A stretch of 27,416 nucleotides of DNA, from positions 1 to 27,416 of IMG/VR virus record IMGVR_UViG_3300020582_000031. One strand, written 5' to 3'. Shown here piece by piece: positions 1 through 23,638 of the stretch (position 1 is the stretch's first letter; every line of letters starts with the position of its first letter). The position numbers and the translations under genes are program-made. The stretch is from a virus. The notes beneath the pieces were generated by a model. That model was given only the letters and a program-made list of their open reading frames with translations, was not told the DNA's origin and did not search any database.

Positions 1-343
1 GAGCAAAAGAAGCTCCAGACCCTCCCCCTCCCCCGGCCCCCATGCATATAACCCTAGTGAGCACAGGAGACCCTGCGGGCTTAGTCCAGGTACCTGACGA
101 TAAAAAAGTCTGGACGTCTACTAATCCGGTCGGGCCTGTAGTACCCATTGCTCCAGTAGCTCCGGTTGCCCCCGTAGTACCTGTAGCTCCTACAGAACCC
201 GTTGCCCCAGTTGCTCCGGTTACTCCAACAGGTCCAGCCGCGCCAGTAGCCCCTGTCGCACCCGCGGATCCAGTAGCGCCTGTGGCCCCGGTAAGTCCTA
301 CGAAGCCGCCTTGTGTACCACTGCCTTCAACTGGGTTACTCAT
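1..343 (-). CDS. Collagen-like tail fibre / glycine-rich virion protein (3' end cut by window)
   Basis: The frame opens with ATG directly after the TAG stop of the upstream gene (TAGATG) and runs off the left edge without a stop. Residues 16-72 are 19 uninterrupted Gly-X-Y triplets, mostly GAT, with GPT, GSA and GTT among them. Then comes [15 protein letters not shown] and a run of glycines ([10 protein letters not shown]). A Gly-X-Y shaft followed by an SGTWTKPAG...GGGGGSG tail is typical of phage tail fibre or appendage proteins, where the collagen-like part trimerises and the glycine-rich part forms the distal tip. It is the last visible gene of the late operon, consistent with a host-contact protein. 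The plus strand shows a mirror-image PVAP-repeat frame here, which I take to be an artefact. The exact attachment point on the virion is unknown. Confidence 0.8.
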
Positions 344-3015: not shown

Positions 3016-3936
3016 TCATAACCCGGCTGTGCCAAACACACATCTTGGGTCCGTAAAGTTAGGAATGTAGCGCTCAGTCGCCTTATAGCGCATGGAATCG
3101 GTCTCGAAGTCACCCTCCATGCTCTTCTCCAGGGTACGACGCATTGCGAGCTTCAGCCCCTGACGCACGTCTGTCTGCACAAACCAAGCAGTCTGCGACG
3201 TGAGGCGCGAGATGTTAGCCTGCCCCTTCGGCAAGAGACCCAACGACTTGATGGGGTTCACATCGTTGTTTGCGGTCCCTGCACGTAGGACACTCTTCAA
3301 GAGCACCTCACCTTGCATCACGTTCGAAGGCGACGTGATCAGCTGAAGCGGGGTCAGCCTAATACGCTTGCCGTTATTATCCACGGCATTGCGTATCTGG
3401 ATGAGCATCTGCTCCAACGAAGTCTGGGACAATGCTGCAGCCGTAGTGAGCTGGTTGCTAAAGGACCCGGCAGGAGGCGCCAAGGGGTGGTTCGGCGCAA
3501 TCAGCGCGACACCATCCCCCCCAGGGAAAGCTGCGTTGAACCCGTTGTTGAGCACATTCGCACAGAGAACTTCTTTCGTCTCGACTAACGACTGCGCCAA
3601 GTGCTCGGCGAAAATAGTGCCGATCTTGATGTGATCGCCGTCTTCGACCAGTACCTTGGTCAGCGCAAAAGCCAACCCGAAGACTGCATACAGGTAGCGC
3701 TGGATGTAGAGCACTCCGCCCGACTGGTATGTGACCGGGGTGCCATCTGGCAACGCGGGCGCTGCGCCCATCCCGAAGAGCACCGGCTCCTCGTGATAAT
3801 TACGAGGGGTGCCGCGGAACTCGCGGAAGATGAGCTTCCACTCATCCGCACGCTGATCGTAAATGCCGTCGAAAGTCTCGTTGAGGATGGGCTCAACGAC
3901 TGAGCGGAAGTCTGTACTCCGCATTGGAAGTGCCAT
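3016..3936 (-). CDS. Major capsid protein (HK97-fold type)
   Basis: The 306-residue protein has the size and layout of a phage major head protein. It has an N-terminal segment of helix and strand, a long alpha-rich central part (about 90-130 and 165-190), TPLQLITSPSNVMQGEVLL near 200, and a C-terminal LTSQTAWFVQTD...LKLAMRR core strand set ending YIPNFTDPRCVFGTAGL. The pattern resembles Mu-type and related major head subunits. It has the strongest ribosome binding site of the region (AGGAGATTTACT before ATG), as expected for the most abundant virion protein. It lies downstream of the scaffold candidate in the portal-scaffold-capsid order usual for tailed phages. Confidence 0.85.
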   Translation of the reverse strand: MALPMRSTDFRSVVEPILNETFDGIYDQRADEWKLIFREFRGTPRNYHEEPVLFGMGAAPALPDGTPVTYQSGGVLYIQRYLYAVFGLAFALTKVLVEDGDHIKIGTIFAEHLAQSLVETKEVLCANVLNNGFNAAFPGGDGVALIAPNHPLAPPAGSFSNQLTTAAALSQTSLEQMLIQIRNAVDNNGKRIRLTPLQLITSPSNVMQGEVLLKSVLRAGTANNDVNPIKSLGLLPKGQANISRLTSQTAWFVQTDVRQGLKLAMRRTLEKSMEGDFETDSMRYKATERYIPNFTDPRCVFGTAGL

Positions 3937-3969
3937 AGTAAATCTCCTGTGGCGTTAAGTTGCGGAGTG

Positions 3970-4656
3970 TTAGTAAGCGACGCCCGGCAGAGGTAGATCT
4001 TGGTGAAGCGCAATCTCGACAATTACCTGAGTAAATGCATCTCCAGGGTTATTATCAATCTGCTGCGCGAACCCGACTATGCGTAGTTGGTTTAACGTCG
4101 TAGGCTGGTTTAGAGTGTTACTCATGTTTGCAGTGGTCGTATCCAGTGCAACCGTAGAGAACCCCGTCGTAGCATTACCGTTAGCCGACCCGTTCGCAGT
4201 AAACGACGCAAGGGTACCCATCGATGGCACCGTCGCCGTTGGGGTTGCGGCCACTGGGCCGTTCGCTTGAATCTGGTAACGGATACGCGGGTCGCGCGTA
4301 ATCCAGGCAACTGTCTGCGAGCCTGCGAAGGGCACAGTACCGGCAGGCCAGAAATTGGACACCGTACGGCGCCCCGTGGCCAACGTAAATTCAACCCCTT
4401 GGAAGGAGCCGAGTAGCTTATTGGCCAGTGTTGGAGTGACAGCTGACGCGCCCTGAGCCGCAATCAACACGATATTCGACGTAGGAGTGACCGTGTCGAT
4501 ACCGATAGGCGAATTCAGAAAAATGTTGTTGGCGTAGCCGCTCGCGATGGTATACCCACCTAGAGGCTGACCCCCGCCAGAACCAAACGCCGGACGAACT
4601 ATTCCGGATTCGTGAGCCACGGGCGCAAGCCCGTACGGAGCAAATACAAGTGACAC
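3970..4656 (-). CDS. Putative capsid-associated (cement/decoration) protein, 228 aa
   Basis: This starts at GTG with a GAGG site upstream. The protein is beta-rich and begins MSLVFAPYGLAPVAHESG. A central block FAGSQTVAWITRDPRIRYQIQANGP is followed by an Ala/Thr/Asn-rich stretch and NNPGDAFTQVIVEIALHQ. I associate this arrangement with virion proteins encoded next to the capsid gene in many tailed phages. It sits immediately upstream of the major capsid gene, separated by 33 bases containing the capsid ribosome binding site. A decoration or cement role is inferred from position. Confidence 0.65.
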   Translation of the reverse strand: MSLVFAPYGLAPVAHESGIVRPAFGSGGGQPLGGYTIASGYANNIFLNSPIGIDTVTPTSNIVLIAAQGASAVTPTLANKLLGSFQGVEFTLATGRRTVSNFWPAGTVPFAGSQTVAWITRDPRIRYQIQANGPVAATPTATVPSMGTLASFTANGSANGNATTGFSTVALDTTTANMSNTLNQPTTLNQLRIVGFAQQIDNNPGDAFTQVIVEIALHQDLPLPGVAY

Positions 4657-4688
4657 GGTAGGAGCCTCACAGATGAGAAAGTCATCCG

Positions 4689-5264
4689 CTAGCCCTCCAT
4701 CTCTGTTTCACAGAAGTTGGGGGCTTCGCGGGCCTGTCCCAGCTCCTCAATGCCTGCCTCTACTACCGGAGCCCGCATCTTGCCGCCCCGTTTTGCGGAC
4801 TGCGCCGCTACTTCCCCAGCTTCGAAGGCGCTATTGTAAATAGCTTCTTCATTTCGAGCTGGCTCGTGGTGGTGCAACGTCTCCATGTACAACTGGTACT
4901 CGTGGAGAGTAATCTTCATCCCGACCATTTCACGCCACGTGATCACACCCGGGAAATCCCCCGTGCGCTGGTCCGTGTACGTGAACTCAGGGACTTCCTC
5001 CCGCTTGATGTACGAGTAACCCAGCTGCTCGCGCCCTTGCGGAGTATCGTTTGGATGCGTCGTAGAAACCCAACATACATGGTACCCAGGTATGTGGGGG
5101 ATGTTAGGCAAAGAAGACTGGAAATTTGCACGTTTCAACAACTCAACGCGCTCTTCATCAGTCAGCTGCCTACGCTCGGTAATCGCCCGATCTTTCATCG
5201 CGCGATCTTCCCGGCCCGGAGCATCCTTCCGAATCCGCTTAATCGACTGTCTAGGGTTGGCCAT
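4689..5264 (-). CDS. Hypothetical morphogenesis-region protein, 191 aa
   Basis: The N-terminal 50 residues are highly basic and charged, resembling an RNA/DNA-binding or disordered tail (SIKRIRKDAPGREDRAMKDR). The middle is compact, with aromatic residues (IPGYHVCWVSTTHPNDTPQG, QLGYSYIKREEVPEFTY). The end is acidic and Ala-rich. It lies between the scaffold candidate and the decoration-like gene in the head operon, and the 13-base gap to the scaffold implies co-expression. It may be an assembly factor or minor head component. I do not recognise the family. Confidence 0.65.
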   Translation of the reverse strand: MANPRQSIKRIRKDAPGREDRAMKDRAITERRQLTDEERVELLKRANFQSSLPNIPHIPGYHVCWVSTTHPNDTPQGREQLGYSYIKREEVPEFTYTDQRTGDFPGVITWREMVGMKITLHEYQLYMETLHHHEPARNEEAIYNSAFEAGEVAAQSAKRGGKMRAPVVEAGIEELGQAREAPNFCETEMEG

Positions 5265-10969: not shown

Positions 10970-13675
10970 TTACCCATCGTACGGGTTGCTCCGCCGTTGT
11001 TGTTTCAGTCTCTCTGACGCTGCCACGATCGCCCTAACCGGGTCCGTGCGCACTGTCAAGCGAATATTGAACTTTCGCATGAAGAAAAGCAAAGCTTGGG
11101 TGCAATTGTGCACCGTTCCGCCCGTCGTAACGTAGCTTTCGTCTTCTTCGACCGAAAGGTTATAGACGTCAAAACCCCTGAACCCGCCCTCTACCCTCTC
11201 ATTCTTCTCAACCCAATAAGCCGCACCTTCCGGACGCCAGCACGCTGTACCTGCATAGCGAGGGGTAGCTTGATAGCTGAGTACCCAAGCGTCCAAGCAC
11301 TGAGACGTCTTACCGTTTATTGTTCGCACACCTGCCGATTTGGAAAGGTTAATGTACGCAGAAATCCCTAACCTAGTAAGCAACACTCGCACCCCCCAAA
11401 GAGCTACCAAGGAAGTAGATGTAATTGAGGTAGTCTGAGTGCTTTTCGTAACATGCCCGTCACCGTGGGCATAACCTTCAATGAATCCGCGCACAAAATC
11501 TTCCGGCGCGTCGTACACCCACCCCGGCACGGCTTTGTTCTCTGCCAGGTATCCAAGTGTCTCAAACACCGCAGCTAGCGGCACACTACCCACGTTAGCG
11601 CGCCAGTGGGTACCCTCATTACTAATCAATACATCCCGTACCCCGAACTGCCCCTTGAGTACTCTCGCGCATGTTTTTATAGCCGCCTCGTCACATGCCC
11701 AATTGATGGAGTTTTTCACGCCTCGCCGACTAGTTACGCAACCCTCAGCCATAAACAATCCGAACACAAACCCCGTCTCCGAGGTAAGCGGTATGTGACG
11801 AAAGACTTCCTTAGCCCTGCTATGCTCCAATCTAACTACACTATCTGATACCTGTAGATCAGGACGGGGACAAAACTGCAACACATCGATAGACACCCGC
11901 ACTGCTTCCGGTACATAGCGAGGCAGCATAATCGCATCGTGTTTTGAAGACATCGGACACTGTACCCCTTTACCGTTGCGGTTTAAGGTGTACATAGAGC
12001 GCGGGCGTATTTCAGCAACCGGCTTGAAATGTGGCTCACCCGCTTCTCGGTACGCCGCGTCTTGGTATCGCACACTACTTACCCACGCGGGGTGGTTTCC
12101 GGTAATCGAGATTTCATCCAAGGTCTTCGCTTTGAAACGGTACACATGAGGTGAAATACGCTGCATTGTCTTAGTGACCGGACGCCACCTGCCTTTGTGC
12201 GTGAGCACCAAGTCACCTACCTGGATTGTTGAGATAGCTCGTGGCCCTGTAGGCGTTAAGATGCGCGTCTCAGCCGTCACGCAAGTATCTAAAAGGTCGT
12301 CGTGCACCAAGGACCCCTCGCCGACGTAAGTGCAGAGCTGCCCTATGACCCCCTCTGCCCAGTCTCGCGGCTGTCCAGGGCGTTTTAGGGACTCCACAGC
12401 CCATATCCGACCGTGGGCGAACATCGGAGAGACTGCATGGAGCTTCGAGAGCTTGTCCATGTCGGTCGGAAACCCTTGTGCGAAGACTTCCTCGTTAGCG
12501 AGTACCTGGATGAGCGACTTCCCGGAGCCGGTATCCTCAATCAGCAGGAGGTCGACCGGGCGCCCCGTATGTGCAGGTCGCGCCGTTTTGGAAATCAATG
12601 CGGGGCGTAGGAGGGGCTCCTTGTGGTCGCCGTACGTCAAGGAGCGTTCCATCTTTACGCGACGAATGAGTGCAGGGAAGCCCAAGTACTCCTCCCACGC
12701 ATCCAACAACATGATGTGCTCCCGACGCTCGTATTCGAACAAGCCCCACACGGTACACGCTGTTGGGTCACCTGTTTGCTCTTTCTTGTTCCACGTCTCT
12801 TCCGTGAAGGCGGTATCGAGAGACATTACAACAAAGCGAAACTTCGGGAGTGGCTTACCTGCAGGCCACAGGCGGATATCAGACCGCTTAACGAAACCGG
12901 CCTCTTCGGGGTCGATAATCTCCCCAAACACCTCCTGCCTACCGATAACCGTCCCGCTATATTTTGCTATGTTTTCGTATACAACATTCGATAGGTTTTC
13001 AGCGTTCTCATAAGTACTCCCTGATATTAACACTGACCTCTTAAGCGCTATTAACATGCGCACGAACGGTTTAGGTTTAGGCGTACTAGTCCAGAAAACC
13101 TGCGGATGAGTCCCTAAGCGTAGACCGAATATCAAGTTGTCCCAAGCGCGCTCACCGTATCGCCAAGACGCTATTTCATCGGCCCAAAAACGCGCACACT
13201 GGCGCCCGCGCAACCTTTCAGGCTCTTGTGCGGATAGCCCCTGAATGCGCGCTCCATTCCATAAAATGATCTCTGGGGGGGATTTAGTGGCGGCTTTTAT
13301 TAACCCCGGCGGTATTATCGGGTATGATTGTTTTGTTGTAGGATCAACATAACTACCGTGCAATCCAGCCGGGCCATAGAAACAGGTATTTATTAAATCT
13401 TCGTGAGTAGGAGCCACTACAAAGTTATAACTATTAGGGTCCCGCGATGCTTTACCAAAAATCCATTTAGCCCCGCTTAACGTCTTGCCAAATCCTCTAC
13501 CTGACTTAATACCGAAGAAGTCCCAATCGTCCGTTTGTGGAATCTGTTTGACCCGCGCAATACTACGCCATAGCAACTCTGCGTGCAGAAATTGCAGATC
13601 TTCGTCGGTTAAAATAGCTAGCGATTGCCGCAACGTGCCGGGGTTACTAAAATCGATAAGTTCAACTGCGCCCAT
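10970..13675 (-). CDS. terL: Terminase large subunit, intein-containing precursor
   Basis: This is the packaging ATPase/nuclease. It has a Walker A-like GRGFGKT (residues 59-65), Walker B FWADE (163-167), TSTPKP coupling motif (196-201), and nuclease acidic residues at SLDTAF (D287), IEDTG (E380/D381) and HDD (D459, D460). Residues 465-857 are an intein. The exteins (464 + 44 residues) join to give VHDDLLDT-CTQALLFF, a normal terminase C-terminus, and a 508-residue protein of usual length. The ribosome binding site is weak, and the upstream gene is a homing endonuclease ending two bases before ATG, so expression may depend on coupling. The intein interrupts the third catalytic motif of the nuclease, so unspliced protein should lack nuclease activity. 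Confidence 0.93.
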   Translation of the reverse strand: MGAVELIDFSNPGTLRQSLAILTDEDLQFLHAELLWRSIARVKQIPQTDDWDFFGIKSGRGFGKTLSGAKWIFGKASRDPNSYNFVVAPTHEDLINTCFYGPAGLHGSYVDPTTKQSYPIIPPGLIKAATKSPPEIILWNGARIQGLSAQEPERLRGRQCARFWADEIASWRYGERAWDNLIFGLRLGTHPQVFWTSTPKPKPFVRMLIALKRSVLISGSTYENAENLSNVVYENIAKYSGTVIGRQEVFGEIIDPEEAGFVKRSDIRLWPAGKPLPKFRFVVMSLDTAFTEETWNKKEQTGDPTACTVWGLFEYERREHIMLLDAWEEYLGFPALIRRVKMERSLTYGDHKEPLLRPALISKTARPAHTGRPVDLLLIEDTGSGKSLIQVLANEEVFAQGFPTDMDKLSKLHAVSPMFAHGRIWAVESLKRPGQPRDWAEGVIGQLCTYVGEGSLVHDDLLDTCVTAETRILTPTGPRAISTIQVGDLVLTHKGRWRPVTKTMQRISPHVYRFKAKTLDEISITGNHPAWVSSVRYQDAAYREAGEPHFKPVAEIRPRSMYTLNRNGKGVQCPMSSKHDAIMLPRYVPEAVRVSIDVLQFCPRPDLQVSDSVVRLEHSRAKEVFRHIPLTSETGFVFGLFMAEGCVTSRRGVKNSINWACDEAAIKTCARVLKGQFGVRDVLISNEGTHWRANVGSVPLAAVFETLGYLAENKAVPGWVYDAPEDFVRGFIEGYAHGDGHVTKSTQTTSITSTSLVALWGVRVLLTRLGISAYINLSKSAGVRTINGKTSQCLDAWVLSYQATPRYAGTACWRPEGAAYWVEKNERVEGGFRGFDVYNLSVEEDESYVTTGGTVHNCTQALLFFMRKFNIRLTVRTDPVRAIVAASERLKQQRRSNPYDG
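11105..12283 (-). other. Intein with LAGLIDADG-type homing endonuclease inside terL
   Basis: The 393-residue intein runs from Cys465 to Asn857, with Cys858 as the +1 extein residue. The N-terminal splicing block is CVTAETRILTPTG with VGDLVLTHKGRW. Block B is TGNHPAW (GNHP, residues 526-529). Block F is FDVYNLSVEEDESYVT and the C-terminal block is TVHN-C, giving canonical Cys...His-Asn/Cys chemistry. Between them are two dodecapeptide motifs, FVFGLFMAEG near 636-645 and FIEGYAHGDG near 731-740, as in two-motif LAGLIDADG endonucleases. The second contains the acidic D739. All key splicing residues are present, so splicing and homing both look intact. Confidence 0.92.
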
Positions 13676-13677
13676 GT

Positions 13678-14445
13678 CTAAGCAGTTAGTTTATTAACAG
13701 CCCTAGCTCTATGCACAGCACTTATAGCCAGTCTATGGGACAACGACTTAGGCTTTCGTGCCCACTCCAATAAAGTTAAGCGGGTCTTCTCGGGGGCTTT
13801 CCTACCTTGCAATGCTTGAGACAATTTAGCGCGTTGCGCAGTGCTTTTTGGCCGTCCTTTCCAATACGCCCTACTGGCTTCCACAGAAGGTCGGTGACCT
13901 ACACTACGCAACGTTGCTGCTCGCTTTAACTTAGTCTCCAGCGACTGCTTACGCCCTGTTAACTTACTAGATATCTTCGCCCGAGTGGCTGCGGATAGTT
14001 TTCTACCCGTAAGCGCCGCAGCTATTTTGGCACGATGCTCGGGTGTCTTTTTATACGCTTTCATCGCACAAGAAGTCCTAGCGCGCAACTCGGGGTCTTT
14101 TTGGCGTTCTGTGTGGATCTCAGCCATAACGCGCCGAGTCTTACGAGCATGTTTAAGCCCCACTAAGCCATCACCGCCATTAGTCAAGTTGTACCCGTAG
14201 GGCGCACGGGTGTTTAGTTTCTTAATGTATTTTTGTTCTAATAGCTTAGCTGTTTTGACATTAGTGCAACGACACAGAGTGCTATAGGTAAACCCCCCCT
14301 CACCATACTTACGTATAGCGTTATATAACGCCCCCGAACGCCCTGTCAGGGCATTACGGCAGTGTGTACTGAATCTGTCGGCTCTGGAAGTTACCCCTAC
14401 GTACCTCTTACCGTTAACCGAGCAAGTAATAACGTACACCTGCAT
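13678..14445 (-). CDS. GIY-YIG homing endonuclease with NUMOD3-type repeats
   Basis: I start at ATG 14445, which gives MQVYVITCSVNGKRYVGVTS. The upstream TTG at 14466 would add seven residues inside the previous gene. VYVI...KRYVGVTS is the GIY-YIG motif with the following Arg/Phe-x-His region (ADRFSTHC), and NLTNGGDG closes the nuclease domain near residue 90. Residues 95-250 are basic and repeat an AKI-x-x-x-L-x-GRK pattern three to four times, like NUMOD3 DNA-binding modules of homing endonucleases. Free-standing enzymes of this type cut an intronless or empty cognate site in competing phages. The gene sits directly in front of terL and ends two bases before it. Codon use includes more A/T than its neighbours, consistent with acquisition. 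Confidence 0.9.
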   Translation of the reverse strand: MQVYVITCSVNGKRYVGVTSRADRFSTHCRNALTGRSGALYNAIRKYGEGGFTYSTLCRCTNVKTAKLLEQKYIKKLNTRAPYGYNLTNGGDGLVGLKHARKTRRVMAEIHTERQKDPELRARTSCAMKAYKKTPEHRAKIAAALTGRKLSAATRAKISSKLTGRKQSLETKLKRAATLRSVGHRPSVEASRAYWKGRPKSTAQRAKLSQALQGRKAPEKTRLTLLEWARKPKSLSHRLAISAVHRARAVNKLTA

Positions 14446-14449
14446 AACA

Positions 14450-14695
14450 TCAACCCAAAAAGGCAATAATGGCTTTAGCCTTGGCGATATCCGAGGCGCG
14501 AGCTTCAGCAGTGTGCCCTTTCTGTATACGATTCAACACGTGACCCAACTTCTGGAGAAACGGCTCCGTATTTTTCTCAAGTGCTACGTCACACAAAGAC
14601 GAAATAGTGCAATCGGTCTCGTGTGTGAAGACTGACGCGGTTGCAACATCGACCGCGCGAGCTACTGCATACGCGAAGGTCTGTGAAAAGCTCAC
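14450..14695 (-). CDS. Hypothetical protein, 81 aa
   Basis: The GTG start overlaps the previous stop, so it is coupled to the upstream gene. The protein is helical, with the N-terminal half Ala/Val/Thr-rich and the C-terminal half basic (VLNRIQKGHTAEARASDIAKAKAIIAFLG). It is the last accessory gene before the homing endonuclease. The function is unknown. Its codons near the stop overlap the alternative endonuclease start, suggesting the endonuclease gene was inserted just behind it. Confidence 0.55.
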   Translation of the reverse strand: MSFSQTFAYAVARAVDVATASVFTHETDCTISSLCDVALEKNTEPFLQKLGHVLNRIQKGHTAEARASDIAKAKAIIAFLG

Positions 14696-20351: not shown

Positions 20352-20548
20352 GTAGTCAACCTTGAATTGCGCATGCCGTCATCGTCCATGCGTTGCTGCG
20401 CGCACCAATCTTCGTAGCAGTAGGCAAGGGCCTTAGTCAACCAACTAGTACGCCCCCAATGGTCCTCACGGACACGCTGTAAAGCGCCTGGTCCATAGTG
20501 TGCAATATCGTGAATGCCAAGTATCACTGCGCCGTCTTCAACGTTCAC
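20348..20548 (-). CDS. Hypothetical small protein, 66 aa
   Basis: It has a GTG start with GGAGGACGAAC upstream, overlapping the end of the small terminase by 11 bases. It contains HDIAHYGPGALQRVREDHWG, then TKALAYCYEDWCAQQ. It is helical with several His, Trp and Asp residues, but no clear catalytic site. The function is unknown. Confidence 0.45.
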   Translation of the reverse strand: MNVEDGAVILGIHDIAHYGPGALQRVREDHWGRTSWLTKALAYCYEDWCAQQRMDDDGMRNSRLTT

Positions 20549-21143
20549 GCGGTTCGTCCTCCACGTCGGGTTTCGTCTTACCGTCCACCTTAGGCTGCAC
20601 TAACTTGCACAGCGCATCGATGAGCGCATTGCGCTCTTCCACCTTCACGTTGAGCCCATCAGGCGTACGCAAGTCAACCTCGCTCTTATCGCCATACACG
20701 TGACGCAGCACCTTGCTCGCCGTCCACTTTCTCGAGTCGATACGCAGCCGTGAGCGCTCAAAGCCTTCGCGGTTGAAGACTAAGCCGCCCGTCGATCGCT
20801 GGATGTAATCATTCGCCGCGTTGTCCGCAATCGTGATGATCTCATCCGTCATGTACTCGCAGCATTGCCTGCGCGCGGTCTCATAGCGCCGTCCGAAGTC
20901 CGGGTAGTCACGCTCCCACCGCTTGAGCACGCCCCAGGTGGGCATAGTCGGGTCGCGACATATTTCCGTAGCGGTCACGCCGTTCGCCATGCGCTCCAGG
21001 AGGCGTTCACCCAATTGGGGGGTGTACTGCGTCGGGCGCTTCGGCGGGGTGTCCTGTACGGGCTTACCGTCGCTTTTGGGCGGTTTTTTGCGCGTTACCT
21101 TGGTGGGACCTCGTTTGAGCCTCTTGACCTTACGTGCGGGCAA
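20538..21143 (-). CDS. terS: Terminase small subunit
   Basis: It has a TTG start, since a stop lies a few codons upstream and the next ATG would remove the N-terminal DNA-binding region. After 35 very basic residues, YTPQLGERLLERMANGVTATEICRD and MPTWGVLKRWERDYPDFGRRYETAR form a helix-turn-helix domain typical of small terminases. DEIITIADNAANDYIQ and RLRIDSRKWTASKVLRHVYGDKSEV complete the usual central oligomerisation and C-terminal portal-contact pattern. The small terminase recognises the packaging site and loads the large subunit. It is separated from terL by about 6.9 kb, unusual for phages. Confidence 0.85.
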   Translation of the reverse strand: MPARKVKRLKRGPTKVTRKKPPKSDGKPVQDTPPKRPTQYTPQLGERLLERMANGVTATEICRDPTMPTWGVLKRWERDYPDFGRRYETARRQCCEYMTDEIITIADNAANDYIQRSTGGLVFNREGFERSRLRIDSRKWTASKVLRHVYGDKSEVDLRTPDGLNVKVEERNALIDALCKLVQPKVDGKTKPDVEDEPRER

Positions 21144-21211
21144 TGCGTTCGTCTCACGTCAAACGTGCCGGAAGGTACCAGAAGCTCAAGCTTTTGCAAA
21201 TATGGCGAAGA

Positions 21212-21289
21212 GGCGGTGCTCTCCCTCTGAGCTACGCTGTGCATGGGGTAACCCTAGCAGCGGCCGGATTCGAACCGGCGACCTCCGCC
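21212..21289 (-). tRNA. Circularly permuted tRNA-like element (3' half precedes 5' half)
   Basis: Read on the minus strand, the first part (21289-21255) is GGCGG, AGGTC, then a T-arm GCCGG-TTCGAAT-CCGGC, then CGCTGCT and discriminator-like A. A 13-base linker follows (GGGTTACCCCATG). The second part (21241-21212) is CACAGCG, TA, D-stem GCTC with loop AGAGGGA and GAGC, A, then CCGCC. The anticodon stem CCGCC/GGCGG is 5/5 paired, the acceptor pairs 5/7, and both arms have canonical loop sequences. So a complete cloverleaf exists, but with halves swapped and the break in the anticodon loop. No anticodon can be assigned and no CCA is encoded. No intact tRNA half lies on the outer sides. It may be a processed permuted tRNA, a two-piece tRNA, or a relic of a tandem tRNA pair. 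Confidence 0.65.
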
Positions 21290-21302
21290 AAGGACAGTAT
21301 AC

Positions 21303-21340
21303 AAAAAAACGCCCGCAGCCGGGTTGAGGCAGTGCGGGCG
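21303..21340 (-). terminator. Rho-independent terminator between early operon and terS region
   Basis: On the minus strand an 8-bp GC-rich stem (CGCCCGCA/TGCGGGCG, plus-strand arms 21310-21317 and 21333-21340) with a 15-base loop is followed directly by seven T. This is a strong intrinsic terminator for leftward transcription. It ends the small-gene operon whose last gene stops at 21422 and lies just before the tRNA-like element. Genes further left therefore need their own promoter or antitermination. Confidence 0.85.
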
Positions 21341-21389: not shown

Positions 21390-21421
21390 TGACGGGATTA
21401 TTCCCTATCGAGGTTGAGGTG

Positions 21422-21604
21422 TCAAACTACCCAGTTAGTGAACAAGCCGCGGGAGCGCAGCCAAAGCAATAACTGGCGCGAGGCTTCCTCGTCCGACACC
21501 CGCAACGGGCTGTCCTTGACCCGATAACGTGTAAACCATCTTTTCAAACACGCTTTACACCCCCCTTGACCTAACGGGCGTTTATGTATAGCGCATTTTT
21601 TCAT
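21422..21604 (-). CDS. Small zinc-knuckle protein, 60 aa
   Basis: It is the last gene before the terminator, and its ATG overlaps the previous stop (ATGA). Cys4, His7, Cys16 and Cys19 (CAIH and CKAC) form a probable CCHC-like zinc site, followed by a basic helix (LKRWFTRYRVK) and an amphipathic end. A small nucleic-acid-binding or protein-adaptor role is likely by composition. The function is unknown. Confidence 0.55.
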   Translation of the reverse strand: MKKCAIHKRPLGQGGCKACLKRWFTRYRVKDSPLRVSDEEASRQLLLWLRSRGLFTNWVV

Positions 21605-23037: not shown

Positions 23038-23430
23038 CTACCAGAGAAGTCTCCAAGGCTCCCGCACACAATCGACCGGCCGTTGAAGTCTACCCTGTTT
23101 GCGTAAGGTAGCTCTTACCGGCGTTAAACTGCCCCACCCTATACCGGCTTTAATCGCCTCCCGACACATCTCTGCGCTGCGCATCTGATTACCGTATTCC
23201 TGCATCGTAGAAAGAAACCACTGTTCTACCTCAATAACCCTGGCGGTTCTACGTAGCGGCTTTGGAGTTATTTCCTCTTGTACTTCGGGGTTAAGCAAAA
23301 ATTGGCGTATAGCGGTTCGTATAAGCTTTGAACGCGTCATACGCCGTTTAGTGGCCAGCTTATCCAGCTTCGCTATTAATCCCCGTGGAGCCCCGAAAAG
23401 TACATTTATTTTTCTTTTGGTTTTCATCAT
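23038..23430 (-). CDS. Ribbon-helix-helix DNA-binding protein, 130 aa
   Basis: Start ATG 23430 is chosen because of GAGGG upstream. A much longer frame upstream reads through the repeat region and looks non-coding. Residues 1-50, KRKINVLFGAPRGLIAKLDKL then MTRSKLIRTAIRQFLL, form a beta strand and two helices of Arc/CopG type, with basic residues on the strand for DNA contact. The C-terminal 60 residues form a second helical region. RHH proteins bind as dimers to short inverted or direct repeats. The CGATCA array lies immediately upstream, so it is a likely self-repressor, ori regulator or initiator partner. Confidence 0.75.
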   Translation of the reverse strand: MMKTKRKINVLFGAPRGLIAKLDKLATKRRMTRSKLIRTAIRQFLLNPEVQEEITPKPLRRTARVIEVEQWFLSTMQEYGNQMRSAEMCREAIKAGIGWGSLTPVRATLRKQGRLQRPVDCVREPWRLLW

Positions 23431-23463
23431 CTTACCCTCGCGCGCATGTATGCACACCCTAAA

Positions 23464-23638
23464 TGATCGTTTGAATGGTTTTAATATATAAAAAATAGTA
23501 TTCCACCATCGATCACATATAGAACGGTGGTATGATCGTTGGTGAGTATATATGCTTTTACCAGCGATCACACCAACGATCAATATGTGATTGATGGTGA
23601 AATACGGTAAATACAGCATAAACCCCTTCCAACGATCA
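23464..23638. repeat. Array of CGATCA/TGATCG sites, candidate operator or replication origin
   Basis: Six copies of the hexamer CGATCA or its complement TGATCG lie in 175 bases, at 23465-ish, 23510, 23533, 23565, 23577 and 23633, most inside AACGATCA-like 8-mers. A diverged TGATTGATGG copy lies near 23589. An AT-rich stretch (23479-23500) lies among them. It sits between the replication gene and an RHH regulator, as iterons or operators would. A TATACT-type -10 on the minus strand (23545-23550) abuts one site. Confidence 0.6.
23498..23605. repeat. Large nested inverted repeat, cruciform-like
   Basis: Outer arms 23498-23520 and 23583-23605 match inverted over 21 of 23 bases (core CACCATC-ATCACATAT). 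Inner arms TGATCGTTGGTG (23533-23544) and CACCAACGATCA (23571-23582) are a perfect 12-bp match. The right inner and outer arms are contiguous, while the left pair is separated by 12 bases. Such a palindrome can extrude a cruciform and is typical of origins or multi-dimer binding sites. Confidence 0.75.

Follow-up and report, generated by a model that had tools for sequence, protein, structure and literature searches.

A 27,416-base linear phage sequence, analysed whole and here called the window, carries on its minus strand (21289-21204, or 21290-21203 with the closing-stem ends) an element in which the 3' half of a tRNA (GGCGG, AGGTC, a perfect T-arm and CGCTG) lies upstream of a 5' half (CAGCG, TA, a perfect D-arm and CCGCC). 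Tentatively, we read it as a Y-RNA-like tRNA mimic without a known partner, lying in the leader of the late genes. The parts, their pairing and their order are directly observed (Table 1): every piece that the earlier note had listed, including the linker GGG-TTA-CCC and the outer TTTTGT and GCAAAA, is present on the minus strand, and joining the halves in swapped order pairs the anticodon stem 5/5 and the acceptor 5/7, as that note had stated. Both halves end at the anticodon loop. We infer that the element folds as transcribed into a tRNA elbow, without splicing, and decodes nothing. Such a YrlA-like topology is the simpler one, as the permuted order would itself be the finished product, with nothing cut or joined.

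Table 1 Features of the element and its surroundings, in window coordinates
Feature	Position	Strand	Basis or remark
Promoter-like site TTGACA-17-AATAAT	21397..21425	-	11/12 consensus matches; about 0.3 per region in shuffles
Intrinsic-terminator-like hairpin GCCCGCA...TGCGGGC-G-TTTTTTT, seven T at end	21303..21339	-	Read from sequence
Outer stem, 5' strand UUUUUGUA	21300..21307	-	Pairing probability; overlaps terminator T-run
Outer stem, 3' strand UGCAAAAG	21191..21198	-	Pairing probability
UGGCGGAG, beginning of 3' tRNA half	21283..21290	-	Folding; partner CUUCGCCA (favoured), or CCGCC for GGCGG (tRNA-like)
CUUCGCCA, favoured closing-stem 3' strand	21203..21210	-	Folding
GGCGG	21289-21285	-	Sequence
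AGGTC	21284-21280	-	Sequence
T-arm GCCGG-TTCGAAT-CCGGC, perfect	21279-21263	-	Sequence; identical in L001
CGCTGCT, then A	21262-21256, then 21255	-	Sequence
Acceptor-like arm CGCTG / CAGCG, 5 bp, with 18-base closing linker containing GGG-TTA-CCC	21235..21262	-	Sequence and folding
Linker GGG-TTA-CCC	21254-21246	-	Sequence
CACAGCG, then TA	21241-21235, then 21234-21233	-	Sequence
D-arm GCTC-AGAGGGA-GAGC	21218..21232	-	Sequence; A14, G15, G18, G19 and A21 retained
CCGCC, possible 5' strand of anticodon stem	21212..21216	-	TCGCT in L001, G-U pairing still possible
Terminase small subunit gene (terS), first downstream gene	20538..21143	-	phrog_1482, E 1.7e-32

The complementarity of the halves exceeds what separate tRNAs give. 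When the 3' half of one tRNA was set against the 5' half of another among 1,050 phage tRNAs from the fetched loci, the five inner pairs of the acceptor and the complete five-pair anticodon stem formed together in a fraction of 0.00078 of random pairs and in 1/610 adjacent pairs, which indicates that the two halves of the element belong together. Fusion of two unrelated tRNAs is thus ruled out at about 0.001, and the description of the element as tRNA-derived, permuted and a single self-complementary unit holds. The other origin suggested in the earlier note, a decayed tandem tRNA pair, can stand only if one and the same tRNA was present twice or the unit is a relic, and falls for an unrelated pair.

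The anticodon stem proposed from the sequence can pair, but CUUCGCC (21210-21204) is the preferred partner of GGCGGAG: the pairing probability of UGGCGGAG with CUUCGCCA is 0.81-1.0 across the window and its relative L001, against about 0 for the tRNA-like GGCGG / CCGCC. The outer stem of UUUUUGUA with UGCAAAAG reaches 0.87 in both sequences, and the T-stem and D-stem reach 0.99 and 0.99 in the window and 0.99 and 0.82 in L001. The acceptor-like stem has a probability of 0.42 in the window and 0.03 in L001 and is partly disrupted in the minimum free energy (MFE) folds. The fold as a whole has an unremarkable energy (z -0.9 and -1.6); the end duplex has a z of about -2.3 against shuffles and is equalled in strength in 13% of genomic controls. 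A Y-like closing stem formed by the paired ends is plausible from these predictions.

The element is shared by one relative only, the near-identical phage contig L001 (61,976 bases), where the permuted order that the earlier note had proposed to look for is kept, together with the terminator hairpin and the T-arm; the promoter-like -10 there reads AATACT. Within the element the two sequences differ by four substitutions and one indel, the latter in the D-loop, all of them at positions that the MFE fold of the window itself leaves unpaired (substitutions, p 0.017). The T-arm, D-stem and elbow residues are identical. Divergence is 5/87 in the element versus 14/769 in the rest of the aligned stretch (p 0.036); the difference from other intergenic bases is not significant (p 0.14). 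In L002, whose TerS is 61% identical, the terS leader parts GGTACCTTC are kept and the tRNA-like element is absent. Viral contigs searched with TerS, the primase and exact patterns, and genome contigs searched with TerS, yielded only L001, L002 and distant terminases.

On the minus strand the order is promoter-like site, terminator-like hairpin, element and terS, which starts at 21143; the terminator scan omits the hairpin because of its loop limit of 8. The element thus probably lies in the late leader, ahead of the late genes, with an intrinsic terminator upstream and terS downstream. A leader with a promoter followed by a terminator is the arrangement of lambdoid late operons, and by analogy terS may be under a lambdoid-like leader control. 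The phage encodes TerS, an intein-bearing TerL, a portal protein and a primase, and over the half that matched, its TerL shares 48% identity with those of Caulobacter phages RW, RLK, KcrB and GB2A. The TerL gene (10970-13675, minus strand) contains an intein with Hint and LAGLIDADG domains, and a GIY-YIG/NUMOD3 endonuclease gene lies directly upstream (13678-14466, minus strand). Elsewhere in the window, an inverted repeat with 46-base arms, 85% complementary (23498-23605), lies at the beginning of a ribbon-helix-helix regulator gene (23038-23619, minus strand) and holds repeated TGATCGTTGGTG, possibly operator sites.

As a decoding tRNA the element is defective. ARAGORN finds no tRNA in the window, the RF00005 covariance model finds none in the 27,416-base record or in the 61,976-base L001, and the window has no match to the tmRNA model RF00023. 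The bases preceding GGCGG are CTGTCCTT in the window (CTGTCTTT in L001) and give an anticodon loop of 8 bases, or one of 7 bases in which position 33 is G; the join closest to a normal loop is the 8-base CUGUCCUU. Rejoining therefore fails to produce a full cloverleaf that has U33 and an anticodon loop of 7 bases, whereas other phage elements do give one when rejoined, and the acceptor of the element pairs 5/7 in the window (1-72 and 2-71 mismatched) and 6/7 in L001. The element encodes no CCA and contains no intron or splicing motif, and the analysis turned up no splicing machinery. RtcB, considered as the ligase partner, is absent from all 22 records with permuted or insert-type elements and from L001. 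A split at 28/29, as in other phages, was rejected since no 29-31 strand or loop fits, and a permuted group I intron-exon origin was rejected because a search of the window up to E 5 gave no RF00028 match; ten related loci have no RF00028 match at the gathering score. Group I-like cores were read by eye only in the anticodon-loop inserts of L060 and L094. In L143 a normal tRNA-Asp reads CCGCC-CTGTCAC-GGCGG-AGGTC; compared with it, the window 3' half, CTGTC-CTT-GGCGG-AGGTC, has one extra base and lacks purine 37. From this resemblance the 3' half may descend from tRNA-Asp, and in its present form it is unable to decode. By BLAST the rejoined sequence matches tRNA-Asp genes of phages best, at 81-84%, although the hand-chosen join contributes to this outcome. 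Scoring the rejoined halves with a covariance model, as the earlier note had suggested, does not discriminate: a model of the permuted order, that for YrlA, scores ordinary tandem tRNAs at up to 40.8 bits, and ARAGORN was discarded as a test of the rejoined sequence because it accepts most joins at every locus.

The closest known architecture is that of YrlA, which consists of a terminal stem and a tRNA-like domain (PMC8394870). The Rfam consensus of YrlA (RF02553) has the order T-arm, acceptor-like arm and D-arm, which the window element shares, and among Rfam families the window matches RF02553 best, full length at 33.3 bits (E 0.0009), with 32.0 bits for the L001 element. Both scores are less than half of the gathering score of 69 bits, so neither element is a member by score, and the middle YrlA stem is mispaired in the alignment of the window element. 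Moreover, 25/25 phage records with ordinary tandem tRNA arrays match RF02553, at up to 40.8 bits, which means that the score reports merely a 3' tRNA half followed by a 5' half; at 33 bits, inside this control range, it was rejected as proof of YrlA. For annotation this matters, as a YrlA score of about 33 bits cannot separate a tRNA mimic from tandem tRNAs, and sub-threshold RF02553 (Rfam 15) matches in tRNA-rich phages are untrustworthy. The likeness that remains is structural: T-arm, closed acceptor arm and D-arm, with the ends predicted to pair as a closing stem with an internal loop, and the anticodon arm absent. The window element differs from YrlA in its low score, in a U-A-rich outer stem and in that neither a Ro60 gene nor the Ro-type stem motif was found. 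No Ro60 (TROVE) gene is present in the 27,416-base record or the 61,976-base relative, both of which may be incomplete, and neither the window nor L001 has the motif GG(T/A)TA(Y) that precedes the 3' half in 7/9 Ro60-linked records.

A scan for a T-arm followed by a D-arm identified many other phages with real permuted tRNA-like units, most of which, when rejoined, give a perfect anticodon arm in which the break follows position 28. A TROVE protein is encoded in 9/22 records (permuted or insert-type) and directly adjoins the element in several; in L027, for example, the element at 3312-3378 is followed by a full Ro60 (TROVE and vWA, 3452-5071) whose frame opens 74 bases past it. Permuted RNAs with an anticodon arm occur in the Ro60-encoding records L027, L018, L049, L051, L054, L107 and L122. 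Their acceptor is often closed by 2-6 bases (GAAA in L107 and L122), and several of them therefore resemble Y RNAs that carry an anticodon arm, already complete as mimics, rather than tRNA precursors. Our literature search returned no paper on phage permuted tRNAs or on Ro60-linked permuted RNAs with an anticodon arm. The window element resembles the Ro60-adjacent RNAs (L027, L049, L107 and L122) in having the 3' half first and the acceptor closed by a short loop, but has none of their complete anticodon arm, 6-7/7 acceptor, GG(T/A)TA motif and Ro60 neighbour. By the tests made here it belongs neither with the Ro60-type Y RNAs nor with the elements that bear an anticodon arm. Hairpin inserts of 43-69 bases, all at 28/29 in the anticodon stem, were also seen in non-permuted tRNA genes of L103 (around 3110, minus strand), L109 (around 12944, plus strand) and L062 (around 305, minus strand); the genes of L103 and L109 lie in Ro60-encoding records. 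Among records without Ro60, a CAGCAA motif precedes the 3' half, with a 7-bp outer helix, in L014, L081, L096, L110 and L062, and a TTATTTCT motif does so in L017 and L094; these elements, permuted or insert-type, are possibly bound by other proteins.

Several explanations compete for these observations. A permuted or two-piece tRNA-Asp-GUC, cut and joined into a decoding tRNA, would account for the permuted halves, the 5/5 anticodon stem and the CUGUC at the loop position. It is very improbable given the 8-base loop with C or U at 37, the failing acceptor pairs, the missing CCA, intron, splicing motif and (in the relative) RtcB, and the lack of any further tRNA in the window phage or L001; maturation into a tRNA, as the earlier note had it, and with it a permuted tRNA awaiting splicing, is not supported. 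The circularly permuted tRNA genes of algae and archaea (PMC3978253) share the order of the two halves but are cut at a bulge-helix-bulge and ligated, whereas the window element lacks a valid anticodon loop and its acceptor is defective. The two-piece (permuted) tmRNA of some bacteria has a similar permuted acceptor arm, with the linker removed or looped; it has a tag frame but no canonical D-arm, and the RF00023 search gave nothing here. A true YrlA Y RNA that binds Ro60 from the host or elsewhere is improbable. Its shared domain order, its full-length if weak RF02553 match and the direct adjacency of permuted tRNA-like RNAs to Ro60 in other phages speak for it; TROVE and the GG(T/A)TA(Y) motif are missing from record and relative, and the sub-threshold score lies in the plain tandem-tRNA range with a mispaired middle stem.

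More serious, if still doubtful, is that the element is non-functional and kept by chance, a relic left either by one tRNA, possibly Asp-GUC, that was duplicated in tandem or by an earlier RNA of permuted or Y-like kind. Its occurrence in only two near-identical contigs, its absence upstream of the L002 terS, its faster divergence than the flanks, the 5/7 acceptor and the resemblance to tRNA-Asp, of the 3' half to the L143 loop and of the rejoined sequence as matched above, all fit a relic. Yet the T-arm, D-stem and elbow residues are unaltered while loops have changed, and with unrelated tRNAs excluded a relic requires the same tRNA twice and both breaks at the anticodon loop. Random decay would not favour such breaks, which argues for the tRNA mimic, as do the full-length best match to YrlA (below cut-off and not specific) together with the stem complementarity, the closing and outer stems in both sequences with intact elbow residues and changes at unpaired positions, and the promoter-like site and terminator upstream with terS downstream. 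Against the mimic stand the restriction to two near-identical sequences, the ordinary fold energy and the controls that equal the closing duplex, the disrupted acceptor-like stem, and a faster divergence such as relaxed constraint would give.

Read as a mimic, the element is built in the order T-arm, closed acceptor arm and D-arm, and a closing stem from its two ends would take the place of the anticodon arm. It would be transcribed when late transcription reads through the terminator ahead of terS, and no structured RNA would precede it in the read-through transcript. There its elbow could be shown to enzymes that bind or process tRNA, or the element could protect the late mRNA at its 5' end. 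In its most specific form, a Ro60-independent Y-like mimic heading the late transcript, whose folded elbow recruits or decoys tRNA-binding enzymes and so controls or protects the late mRNA, this scheme is unlikely to be right in every part. If functional, the element would be a YrlA-style tRNA mimic apart from Ro60, usable by a phage late leader, and would extend the permuted tRNA layouts of phages to finished mimics that need no processing.
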